From assembly GCA_021730635.1 (NCBI GenBank), contig JAJNNC010000006.1, positions 62,001-126,000 on the forward strand: a stretch of 64,000 nucleotides of DNA, written 5' to 3'. Origin of the DNA: Catalimonadaceae bacterium JC749 (GTDB lineage: Bacteria > Bacteroidota > Bacteroidia > Cytophagales > Cyclobacteriaceae). The notes beneath the pieces were generated by a model. That model was not told where the DNA came from. It searched no databases and saw only the letters and a list, made by a program, of their open reading frames with translations. This document shows positions 3,927-7,898 of this stretch, one piece after another (position 1 is the first letter of the stretch; each line of letters opens with the position of its first letter). A program made the translations under genes and the position numbers.

Positions 3927-4970
3927 TTACATAACGGCCAGAGCTTTGTTGTCGAGCTGGTCGCCATACAGTTTTTTGTAGTACACTTTCCGCTCAATGG
4001 CTTCAATCACAGGCTCACAGAAATCTATCTTCTCCAGGTTTGACACATCATACAACCCACCGGGACTGAAGACATTGACCTCAACGAGTTTATCGCCTAC
4101 AATGTCTAAGCCCACGAAAAAAACACCATCTTCCATTAATTTGGGTCTTACCCTCTCCACAATGTTCAGCATGGCCTGGTTTACTTTTACACTGACCGCC
4201 TTTCCACCGGCGCTTACATTACTTCTGAAATCATCTTTCCGATTAACTCTCCGGACAGCGGCATATTTCCCCTCTTTCAGGATGGCCTGCCCATTCATCA
4301 CCAGCAGTCGAACATCTCCTTTAGAGGCTTCTGGCAGATATTCCTGCGCAATGATAAATCCGTGCCGGGCAATGGCTTCTACAATCTGGTTGAGGTTATT
4401 TTCCTTGTCATTCAACAAAAACACATCTCTCCCACCAGAGCCTTGTAATGGCTTCAATACAATCTGTTGATTGTTTTCTTCGTAAAACTTTCTGATATCT
4501 TTGGCGTTGCGGGTAATGATGGTGCGGGGCCGCACGCTCTCCGGAAAGTGCTGAAAGTACATTTTGTTCAAGGTATTGAACAGGGTATCCGGGTGATTCA
4601 GCACTATCACTCCCTGGTTGAGCGCAATTTTACCGAAAAAAACGCCAGCTGCCTGTGCCCAGGGCCTCCCTTCAATATCTACAGAAGGATCGTTGCGAAT
4701 CCATAACACATCCAGGTCGTGAGAAGTGATAGCCTTCTTTTTCGCTTTTTGCTCTTCCTGAAGACACTGAAGAAATTCCTCCACCGTCTTGATCCCTTTG
4801 TCAACCGTACAGGCCTGAGCGCCTATATGTCCTTCAGGAAAATACACCAGCTCGTCAACACCCATAAAGTAAACTTCGTGCCCCATCTGCAAAGCTTTAT
4901 AAGCCAGATGGACGGTGGTATAGACTACCTTCTCTGTTTTGACCTGATTGACGACAAATCCGATTTTCAT
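3927..4970 (-). CDS. Glutathione-synthase-like ATP-grasp ligase, copy 2
   Basis: This 347-residue protein has an N-terminal pre-ATP-grasp half (MKIGFVVNQV, then an IRNDPSVD motif as in GshB-like enzymes) and a C-terminal ATP-grasp half. In the latter, IVLKPLQGSGGRDVFLL supplies the phosphate-binding Lys and Gly loop, AQEYLPEASKGDVRLLVMNG follows, and VGLDIVGDKLVEVNVFSPGG carries the Mg2+-binding acidic and Asn residues. ATP-grasp ligases of this type join a carboxylate to an amine through an acyl-phosphate. The substrate is unknown, and no gamma-glutamylcysteine synthetase is nearby, so true glutathione synthesis is doubtful. It is a tandem paralogue of the gene directly upstream (52-bp gap) and the last gene of the DUF1704 operon. 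Confidence 0.8.
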   Translation of the reverse strand: MKIGFVVNQVKTEKVVYTTVHLAYKALQMGHEVYFMGVDELVYFPEGHIGAQACTVDKGIKTVEEFLQCLQEEQKAKKKAITSHDLDVLWIRNDPSVDIEGRPWAQAAGVFFGKIALNQGVIVLNHPDTLFNTLNKMYFQHFPESVRPRTIITRNAKDIRKFYEENNQQIVLKPLQGSGGRDVFLLNDKENNLNQIVEAIARHGFIIAQEYLPEASKGDVRLLVMNGQAILKEGKYAAVRRVNRKDDFRSNVSAGGKAVSVKVNQAMLNIVERVRPKLMEDGVFFVGLDIVGDKLVEVNVFSPGGLYDVSNLEKIDFCEPVIEAIERKVYYKKLYGDQLDNKALAVM

Positions 4971-5022
4971 AGATTAAACGATATAGCTGGTGGCCCCCAA
5001 TCTAAACCTCAACGACTATCAT

Positions 5023-6063
5023 TTACAGCGTAGCCAGGGCTTTGTTGCTGATTTTATCTCCGTATAACTGCTTATAATATACTTTACGCTCAATCGACTC
5101 AATGACAGGTTCAAAAAAACTGATCCCCTGGTGCATGGAAGCCGACAACATGCCCCCTGGGCTAAAAATATTGATTTCCATAAGCTTGTCTCCTACAATG
5201 TCTAAGCCCACACAAAATAAGCCATCGTTGATCAGTTTAGGCCGGATCTTATTGACAATTTCCAGCATGGTATCGTCCACCTCAGCCTTCACGCCTCTTC
5301 CCCCGGCACTCAGGTTGCTACGAAAATCATCTTCTTTGTTGACCCGGCGAAAAGCGGCGTATTTTCCATCCCGTTGGAGGGCCTCTCCATTGACGACAAA
5401 AAGCCTGACATCCCCATCTTTGGCAGCGGGTAAATATTCCTGTGCAATGACATAGCCATGCCGGCTGATGGCTTCTACAATCTGGTTGAGATTCGTCTCC
5501 CTCTCTTTGAGCAAAAAAACATCTTTCCCACCAGAGCCCTGCAAAGGCTTCAGTACGATCTGATGCTCACTCTCTTCAAAGAATTTTTTGATATCATCCA
5601 CATTTCTGGAAATAACCGTGCGGGGCCGGACGCTCTCCGGAAAGTGCTGAAAGTACATTTTATTGAGCGCATCGTTGAGGGCATCTGGATGATTCAATAC
5701 AATCACTCCCTGATTGAGCGCAATCTTGCCAAAAATAACACCAGCATTCTGTGCCCAGGGACGGGTTTCTGTGTCTACGGAAGGGTCATTCCGGATAAAA
5801 AGCACATCCAGCTCATGGGAGGTGATGGGCACCCGCTCTGCTTTGGGTCCCTGCATGCTTTTAAAAAAATTCTCGTAGGTTTTAAATTTTTTGGTAGGTC
5901 GGCGTGCCCACGCTCCCATATGTCCTTCCGGGTAATAGACCAGGTCTCCCACACCCATCAGGTAGGGTTCATGCCCCATCTTATGGGCTGTAAAGGCCAG
6001 TTGAATGGTGGTGTAGGTAGGTATCTCCGTATCTACCTGGTTTACTATAAATCCTATTTTCAT
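5023..6063 (-). CDS. Glutathione-synthase-like ATP-grasp ligase, copy 1
   Basis: This 346-residue paralogue of the next gene is close to colinear with it: MKIGFIVNQV, FIRNDPSVDTETRPWAQNAGVIFGK, HFPESVRPRTVISRN, IVLKPLQGSGGKDVFLL and VGLDIVGDKLMEINIFSPGG are all matched. The ATP-binding Lys/Gly loop and the metal-binding DIVG...EINIFSPGG segment are intact, so both copies should be active. Its ATG overlaps the TGA of the DUF1704 gene as ATGA (6060-6063), a translational-coupling arrangement that argues for joint function. The likely role is an amide/peptide ligase making or extending a small peptide-like product that the neighbouring peptidase acts on; this is inference. Confidence 0.82.
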   Translation of the reverse strand: MKIGFIVNQVDTEIPTYTTIQLAFTAHKMGHEPYLMGVGDLVYYPEGHMGAWARRPTKKFKTYENFFKSMQGPKAERVPITSHELDVLFIRNDPSVDTETRPWAQNAGVIFGKIALNQGVIVLNHPDALNDALNKMYFQHFPESVRPRTVISRNVDDIKKFFEESEHQIVLKPLQGSGGKDVFLLKERETNLNQIVEAISRHGYVIAQEYLPAAKDGDVRLFVVNGEALQRDGKYAAFRRVNKEDDFRSNLSAGGRGVKAEVDDTMLEIVNKIRPKLINDGLFCVGLDIVGDKLMEINIFSPGGMLSASMHQGISFFEPVIESIERKVYYKQLYGDKISNKALATL

Positions 6064-7898
6064 CGTACAACTAATGCTTTTAAATCTACTCCTTTTTTTA
6101 ATTCATTTAATTTTTGCTGGGCGGCTTCGTCAGCCAAATACCGGGGCTGTAAGGCAGGGGGTTTCAAAATGCCCCTTTCTCTGAGCTCCTGGATAATCCC
6201 CACATGCTTGATGGCAATCTTGCCCACCAGCAAAGGCGGCAAGGTGCCCCCTTCTTTCAGATAATCCAACAGTTTGATCAGCCCACGGAGATAAATGACA
6301 TCTTTGGTAAAACCACCTGCCTGATAAATCCGGGTGACAATATCAAAAGCCGTTCTTTTTGTAAAGCCGTATTGCTCATGCAACAGCTGGAAGGTAGTCA
6401 CAAAGGATTCCCCCTGTGTCAGGCTATCCGCCGCCATGACCCGGGCAGCCAGCAATCGCATTCTGAGCGCATCTAACCCACCGCTCAAATATTCTGATAA
6501 CACGGCAATCCCTTCCTGCAATTCATCGTAATCAGCTAAACCGTAACGCAAAAGATGCATGGGTTGTTTTTTTCCGTTGTGGAAGGTCAGAATATGTGTT
6601 CCTACCTCATGCTGTATGAGTGGGGCGACCCTGCTTTTTCTGATATATGAATGCGAGGTCATATACAGCTGTCCTTTGGAAACCATGAGACCCGGCACAT
6701 CAGAACTGATATGAACGTCTGAGAAAAAACTCTCATCCTGCTGTTTGAAATAGTCAAATTCTATCCGGGCTTCGCTGGCAAATTTTAAGGGAGACACTGT
6801 CTTCTCCCGTTCTTTATCCGCAAAAACATTCCCTAATATATATTCCGCCGTATGTACCAGCCGCTGATCGATGGTTTTATACAGACGGATACTGCTGTAC
6901 AAAAAATCGGGGCTGTTGCGCTCCAGCAACATATTCATCTGTTTGTCCAGTTCATTGCGCTTGTCCCGTAACAGAAAAGCCAGGGCAGGATCATGGATTT
7001 TGTCCAGGTCTATTTCAAAAATTTTCTTTTTCATCATCTCCGGATCCACATTCAGGATACGGTAATAGTACACGGGCTTTTTTCTGAATTTACTCCGGCG
7101 AAAGGCTTCCCATGCCTGTTCGGTATTAATGGCAGACACCAGCAACAGAAAATCAAAAGTATGCTCGATCTCCGAAAGCTGTCGATCGGCTTCCCAGAAT
7201 GCCTCGTCTACCGACCGGCGGCCCAGTATATAGTAGTTGCTGATTTTCAGGGTGGTCTGAATCCGTATAAAATCATACAGCGCTTTGCGTAAGACCTCCG
7301 AGAACTGATCTTTAAAGCTACGGAAAAGCACCGGATAGGCAGCGCCACTCTCCCGATGTGAAAATAAAGAAGGAATTTCCAGACCGATGATCTGGCTCCC
7401 GGTTTGCTGAAGTATCTCACTGTCTATCAGCTCCGAGAAGTCGGAACCAGGTTGCGCCTGAGAAGTGACTTTCAGCCGGGCATGGATTTTAGAAAAATCG
7501 GTAAAACCCTCTTTAAGCACCTTTACCGTAGAGGTCAGCTTGTTTTCCGGGAAATGTATGACCACCTGATCTTCATTGTCCTCACTGAGCCATATGTCTA
7601 GCAGCAGCACTGAGCCAAAAGCTTCAGCCATCTTCTCCAGATACACATTCAGAAACTTTCGTATGTCGGCCGGTAATTTTCTTCCCAGCACAATCAGGTA
7701 GGCCGACTCTCCTCTTACCAGACTTCCCACATCCAGGTCGGGCATCACATGCTCATGCCGAAATACAATAAGATAGGGGAGTTTTTTGTCTATTTGCAGG
7801 CGGTTTTCCTCGTCGAAAAAATACACCAGAGGTTCTCCTGCTTCAACTATGTGGATTAGGTTTTTGTAGCGAATTCCTGGTTGTTTAATCAGTTGCAT
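6060..7898 (-). CDS. DUF1704 / QEGLA-motif zinc metallopeptidase-like protein
   Basis: This 612-residue protein without a signal peptide belongs to the family usually annotated 'flavohemoglobin expression-modulating QEGLA motif protein'. Key residues are visible: HEVGTH at about 430-435 (HExxxH zinc site) and DELQEGIAVLSEYLSGG, with Glu about 462 as probable third ligand, a QEGIA variant of the name-giving QEGLA. The same family includes eukaryotic tubulin-tyrosine carboxypeptidases (MATCAP), so a C-terminal peptidase activity on a small peptide or protein tail is plausible. The N-terminal 250 residues show no motif I recognise. It is first in a three-gene operon with the two ATP-grasp ligases, which suggests a ligate-and-trim system. 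The older flavohemoglobin label should carry little weight. Confidence 0.8.
   Translation of the reverse strand: MQLIKQPGIRYKNLIHIVEAGEPLVYFFDEENRLQIDKKLPYLIVFRHEHVMPDLDVGSLVRGESAYLIVLGRKLPADIRKFLNVYLEKMAEAFGSVLLLDIWLSEDNEDQVVIHFPENKLTSTVKVLKEGFTDFSKIHARLKVTSQAQPGSDFSELIDSEILQQTGSQIIGLEIPSLFSHRESGAAYPVLFRSFKDQFSEVLRKALYDFIRIQTTLKISNYYILGRRSVDEAFWEADRQLSEIEHTFDFLLLVSAINTEQAWEAFRRSKFRKKPVYYYRILNVDPEMMKKKIFEIDLDKIHDPALAFLLRDKRNELDKQMNMLLERNSPDFLYSSIRLYKTIDQRLVHTAEYILGNVFADKEREKTVSPLKFASEARIEFDYFKQQDESFFSDVHISSDVPGLMVSKGQLYMTSHSYIRKSRVAPLIQHEVGTHILTFHNGKKQPMHLLRYGLADYDELQEGIAVLSEYLSGGLDALRMRLLAARVMAADSLTQGESFVTTFQLLHEQYGFTKRTAFDIVTRIYQAGGFTKDVIYLRGLIKLLDYLKEGGTLPPLLVGKIAIKHVGIIQELRERGILKPPALQPRYLADEAAQQKLNELKKGVDLKALVVR

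Follow-up and report, generated by a model that had tools for sequence, protein, structure and literature searches.

A predicted operon pairing a MATCAP (DUF1704) fusion peptidase with GshB-like ATP-grasp ligases in Bacteroidota and other bacteria

Gene order conserved across about ten phyla indicates that a 612-aa peptidase of the MATCAP (DUF1704) family and the GshB-like ATP-grasp ligase encoded directly after it belong to one operon and are functionally coupled. The genes were found in the window, which is the whole stretch of 64,000 nucleotides of Catalimonadaceae bacterium JC749 that was analysed. Among the papers searched, none discusses the pair itself or mentions DUF1704 or KIAA0895L together with ATP-grasp enzymes. 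Iyer, Abhiman, Burroughs and Aravind are said to have predicted in 2009 peptide-synthesis and tagging systems in which ATP-grasp or GCS2 ligases are found with peptidases, and reportedly may already mention DUF1704 neighbourhoods.

The peptidase gene (6060-7898, minus strand) encodes a MATCAP/DUF1704 fusion protein with a degenerate FGase-like domain, as defined by the ORF, PF08014 and an AlphaFold2 model that covers the entire 612 residues with a mean pLDDT of 92.7. The MATCAP (gluzincin) peptidase domain takes up residues ~251-611 (6066-7148, minus strand), with a PF08014 match over residues 264-596 (E 1.5e-80, 271.3 bits against a cut-off of 27), and the C-terminal part of the model superposes on human MATCAP (7z6s) with a Z of 24.7 over 290 residues. 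HEVGTH at residues 430-435 (6594-6611, minus strand) is the HExxxH metal-binding and catalytic motif, whilst QEGIA at residues 461-465 (6504-6518, minus strand) aligns with the EEG of human MATCAP and has E462 as the predicted third metal ligand; H430, E431 and H435, along with Q461, E462 and G463, are present without exception in an alignment of 69 homologues. The protein is predicted to have the MATCAP fold and an intact HExxxH/QEG metal site. The sequence-only reading that preceded this work had placed both motifs in a 612-aa protein and had taken DUF1704 for a relative of tubulin carboxypeptidases, and it was right on both counts, as the motifs lie in this ORF and the PF08014 match comes with the fold and the metal site. 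The eukaryotic enzymes TMCP1 (MATCAP) and TMCP2 have the same HExxxH motif and an EEG motif; they remove residues from the C-terminus and also cut back chains of polyglutamate, a deglutamylase activity (PMC10499314). Against TIGR02421, the QEGLA family, the window protein scores 317.8 bits, below the cut-off of 338.65.

What the earlier reading overlooked is that the same protein carries a degenerate FGase domain at residues ~29-214 (7257-7814, minus strand), from which the metal ligands have been lost. Pfam finds no match in the first ~240 residues from the N-terminus; in hhalign the domain matches the FGases encoded in the same operons (prob 96.2, E 2.5e-9, 210 columns). The top structure for the domain in VIA-align, using the AlphaFold2 model, is the N-formylglutamate amidohydrolase PDB 2q7s, with a Z of 12.6 and a clear gap, and a full-length Foldseek search places nucleoside phosphorylases and carboxypeptidases of similar fold above FGase. 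In 39 aligned copies the FGase (PF05013) residues H-x-G-H, D-x-H and D-x-N-R are replaced or deleted, with E-x-aromatic (E-x-W) standing in for D-x-H in most of them, and because these metal and catalytic residues are gone the domain is very probably catalytically dead. One locus, L020, has an intact FGase fused to MATCAP.

The two ligases, both GshB-like ATP-grasp proteins, are ligase 1 of 346 aa (5023-6063, minus strand), which falls in the B-type (downstream) clade, and its tandem paralogue ligase 2 of 347 aa (3927-4970, minus strand), as assigned by PF02955 (E 1e-52 and 1e-53 respectively), NF009110 (434.7 and 431.9 bits, both over the cut-off of 408) and a tree. The TGA of the peptidase gene and the ATG of ligase 1 form an ATGA stop/start overlap (6060-6063, minus strand) that couples the two genes, and a further 52 bp separates the ligase genes, the products of which are 67% identical. 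All 38 columns that are invariant in 14 homologues are retained by both ligases, and these columns and the coordinates agree with the overlap, the nearby second paralogue and the intact ATP sites described earlier. Matches to PF02951 and PF02955 place the ligase closer to GshB than to RimK, and both window ligases fall short of the equivalogs TIGR01380 (206.5 and 215.4 bits, cut-off 299.05) and NF003573 (216.6 and 226 bits, cut-off 272).

The codon differences between the two ligases are concentrated at the third position (55%, with 16% at the second), with dN at 0.23 and dS saturated, thus both copies have been kept under purifying selection. Their duplication postdates the split from the nearest relative, L069 (SH-aLRT 88, quick tree), independent tandem pairs are found in Salinimicrobium and in Planctomycetota/Gemmatimonadota, and the B-type ligase occurs singly in most loci. 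On this tree the pair is a recent, lineage-specific tandem duplication, a later elaboration and not a core feature. It had been proposed that the duplicated ligase adds two different residues or forms a heterodimer; as the duplication is recent here and separate in other lineages, such a role is unnecessary for the system, and an obligatory heterodimer or two-residue machine was rejected in view of the one B-type ligase of most operons. The most elaborate form seen is a Rhodopirellula locus (L139:7737-14920) with the order MATCAP-ligase-ligase-MATCAP-ligase. Some Flavobacteriia also have an upstream ligase of A-type that is distantly related (about 30% identity), with a co-oriented glutamate/aspartate symporter-like gene immediately before it in five genomes. 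In two genomes a rhodanese-domain gene adjoins the A-type ligase, lying between it and the FGase gene (L021:11816-12637 and L024:6770-7609), a hint of sulphur chemistry; the gene in L021 resembles 3-mercaptopyruvate sulfurtransferase.

A comparison of DUF1704 neighbourhoods across Bacteroidota had been suggested from the sequence, and in 198 genomes it gave a conserved ligase partner and a co-occurrence that is not random. PF08014 is found in 12 of these genomes and a strong ligase (a match of >390 bits) in 11, all of them within the 12 and with both genes sharing one neighbourhood, an overlap of 11/12 that has a chance of P = 3e-17 under independence. The PF08014 genome without a strong ligase, G186, is from the window's own family and has a different, lone DUF1704. 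A further 80 loci from GTDB genomes are the best matches to the window protein, hence describe this subfamily, and 79 have a callable MATCAP gene; the ligase is present in 78 of the 79 and lies on the same strand and <=400 bp downstream in 76, with the two genes overlapping in 28 of those 76 and a -4 overlap being the commonest arrangement (27/76). The hosts come from about ten phyla: Bacteroidota, Calditrichota, Acidobacteriota, Planctomycetota, Verrucomicrobiota, Kiritimatiellota, Gemmatimonadota, Poribacteria, Myxococcota and Pseudomonadota. Chance adjacency of peptidase and ligase is excluded by the 11 co-bearing genomes together with the 76 of 79 loci.

It is apparent that the coupling belongs to a subfamily and not to all DUF1704, since in Gammaproteobacteria a ligase adjoins 7 of the 9 long, fused MATCAP proteins, whereas none of the 20 loci with other DUF1704 (L185-L204, mostly ~430 aa and stand-alone) has an adjacent strong ligase. 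The mostly ~430-aa proteins may differ in function. Thus the idea of a ligase/peptidase pair stands as far as functional coupling goes, with genes that are conserved in many phyla and that, as a rule, overlap or come close to doing so, but does not hold for DUF1704 in general, given these 20 loci and the lone DUF1704 of G186.

In the window the operon is flanked by a TIM-barrel gene and, on the opposite strand, by a Na/Pi cotransporter-like gene, both of which are outside the conserved unit. No protein-target gene or other catabolic gene is consistently linked in the homologous loci, the ORFs having been called with a floor of 90 aa; most of the gaps within the operon leave no room for a short precursor-peptide gene. 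Viral spread was excluded, as the IMG/VR contigs hold no viral relative, as was a role as a defence system, the three window proteins having no PADLOC match. Elsewhere in the window (14071-62908) the translations show glycosidase-like and pectate-lyase-like genes accompanying several pairs of the TonB-dependent-receptor/SusD-like type, which are probably polysaccharide-utilisation loci.

The best clue to the substrate, also overlooked earlier, is a third gene of the FGase or AstE/AspA type, which is either an intact FGase upstream of the fusion gene or an AstE/AspA-type deacylase (PF24827) downstream of the ligase. Within the 69 loci that have sufficient flank, 24 have the FGase only, 37 the AstE/AspA gene only, none have both and 8 have neither, and a D-x-N-R motif is invariant in the two families alike. 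One change on the MATCAP tree suffices for the FGase/AstE exchange, so it counts as one observation and not many, and repeated independent exchange was dropped as an idea. The window falls in the AstE/AspA clade of this tree together with L069, its nearest relative, and in both loci the third gene is absent next door. An alignment-based search found an AstE/AspA homologue on another contig of the window genome (G000:C67:351389-352288, 297 bits) that is 36-42% identical to the operon forms; the alignment was used in place of the PF04952 profile, which matched no third gene because the Pfam model is now limited to a 76-position hybrid part. At L151:7442-10334 (G000 C67) a GCS2-like protein of 643 aa that contains CBS domains is encoded by a gene sharing 20 bp with that of the AstE/AspA homologue, which suggests another ligase/deacylase pair. 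The sole FGase of the window genome sits in a separate operon with a C39-like peptidase, a RLAN/RimK ligase and GCS2, and this second amidoligase operon, C39-like peptidase-RLAN/RimK ATP-grasp-GCS2-FGase, has an identical order in three genomes (L152:6441-10548 on G000 contig C9, L153:4229-8324 and L154:5701-9818).

The explanation we prefer, which we regard as having an even chance of being correct, is that the operon is an amide ligase/hydrolase module that handles an acidic small peptide or metabolite in a make-and-trim cycle, perhaps tied to osmotic state. The ligase would couple an acidic (Glu/Asp-like) carboxylate, by way of an acyl-phosphate, with an amino acid or amine, giving a short pseudo-peptide from which the MATCAP domain would take off the C-terminal residue. 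The third hydrolase would cut an N-acyl or amide bond beside the acidic residue. As the FGase domain is dead, it could act in docking or in holding the substrate. For the acidic theme we draw on the enzyme families, the symporter-like gene, the shared D-x-N-R and the deglutamylase activity of TMCP1/2. Enzymes of the AstE/AspA, FGase and GCS2 families have Glu/Asp compounds as substrates. Family names are weak evidence for the theme, and other amides are the substrates of related M14 and FGase-fold enzymes.

The main rival, possible although unlikely, is that the pair writes and erases a protein tail, with the ligase adding a residue such as Glu or Tyr to a protein C-terminus or side chain and MATCAP removing it. 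This would parallel tubulin, where TTL-family ligases are set against MATCAP/TMCP; the partner ligase is in the ATP-grasp superfamily of RimK and TTL, and the N-terminal domain, which is non-catalytic, could serve to dock a protein. Homology of the peptidase domain to human MATCAP is clear, and the substrates characterised for the human enzyme are the tails of proteins and chains of polyglutamate (PMC10499314). However, the ligase is closer to GshB, a small-molecule ligase, than to RimK, the third gene comes from small-molecule deacylase families and no gene for a protein target is consistently linked. Somewhat more doubtful is the specific form of a bacterial C-terminal tail writer/eraser in which the ATP-grasp enzyme adds a residue to a protein or peptide and MATCAP, held by the dead amidohydrolase domain, removes it. 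If this form were true, pairing with an ATP-grasp ligase would predate the eukaryotic tubulin-trimming enzyme, which would descend from a bacterial peptidase that had such a partner.

A purely catabolic or salvage role seems improbable. In that reading the hydrolases would degrade acidic peptides or N-acyl amino acids that the cell takes up, and the ligase would put the products into storage or make them harmless. FGase and AstE are catabolic elsewhere, in histidine and arginine degradation respectively, and the co-oriented symporter-like gene of five genomes also speaks for this role, but the steadiest partner is the ligase, which spends ATP and is found in 78 of 79 loci, steadier than the third hydrolase, and other catabolic genes are not conserved nearby.

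That no gene of glutathione synthesis is nearby had been stated from the sequence and was borne out; the GshA family PF04262 is missing genome-wide too, being found in none of the 12 MATCAP-bearing Bacteroidota genomes, the window genome included. GCS2 is found in 4 of the 12, the sole match over the cut-off in the window genome lying in a different operon, and BshC, of bacillithiol synthesis, in all 12. Both window ligases are over the cut-off of NF009110/PRK12458, which bears the name glutathione synthetase and which a published screen used to represent GshB (PMC3462692); this is an annotation name and not a demonstrated function. That the ligase makes glutathione and the hydrolases recycle it is very unlikely, as the TIGR01380 and NF003573 cut-offs are missed, the 12 genomes have this complement of PF04262, GCS2 and BshC, and MATCAP and FGase/AstE have no part in known glutathione metabolism.

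The pair sits unrecognised in two published Vibrionaceae data sets, one of which refers to COG3930, which we take to be DUF1704. In Vibrio vulnificus, COG3930 (VV2_1203) and a 'glutathione synthetase' (VV2_1204) are both specific to clade 2 (PMC3091676). In Photobacterium damselae at 1% compared to 3% NaCl, 'GshB' (A0J47_RS17020) is 38-fold up and a QEGLA protein (A0J47_RS17025) 27-fold up (PMC10308900), which suggests that the pair, recognised here by names and adjacent locus tags, is co-regulated at low salinity. The gene set of about ten phyla is filed as 'glutathione synthetase' and 'flavohemoglobin expression-modulating QEGLA protein', names that are unsupported, and such a label has led at least one transcriptome study to count glutathione synthetase with the genes it ranks highest at low salinity (PMC10308900). 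The product, once found, would bring to light either a new metabolite of the acidic peptide kind or a bacterial version of the tubulin tail cycle, and would supply a first substrate for this bacterial MATCAP branch. This is directly testable, given the strict operon structure, the fusion-protein model (pLDDT 92.7) and the culturable hosts Pontibacter, Leeuwenhoekiella and Salinimicrobium.

Compared with known systems, the window protein is like MATCAP/TMCP1 (KIAA0895L) and TMCP2 (PF08014) in its fold, its HExxxH and the Glu of an EG motif as third ligand, but unlike the eukaryotic proteins it is fused to a degenerate FGase and encoded in an operon with an ATP-grasp ligase, and proteins of its type are found in bacteria that, as far as is known, have no microtubules. 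The same domain is found in TIGR02421, the 'flavohemoglobin expression-modulating QEGLA motif protein', although the window protein is below the cut-off of that family and the gammaproteobacterial stand-alone forms are uncoupled. With GshB (1gsa) the window ligases have in common a two-domain architecture, a conserved ATP-grasp region and a loop with R-x-N-x-x-A-G-G, yet they miss the equivalog cut-offs, have other gene partners and occur where classical GshA is absent, in 12 genomes. The operon of RimK-type ligase, GCS2, cysteine peptidase and FGase in the same genome likewise couples ATP-grasp and FGase genes, whereas the operon in the window has a GshB-type ligase and MATCAP.
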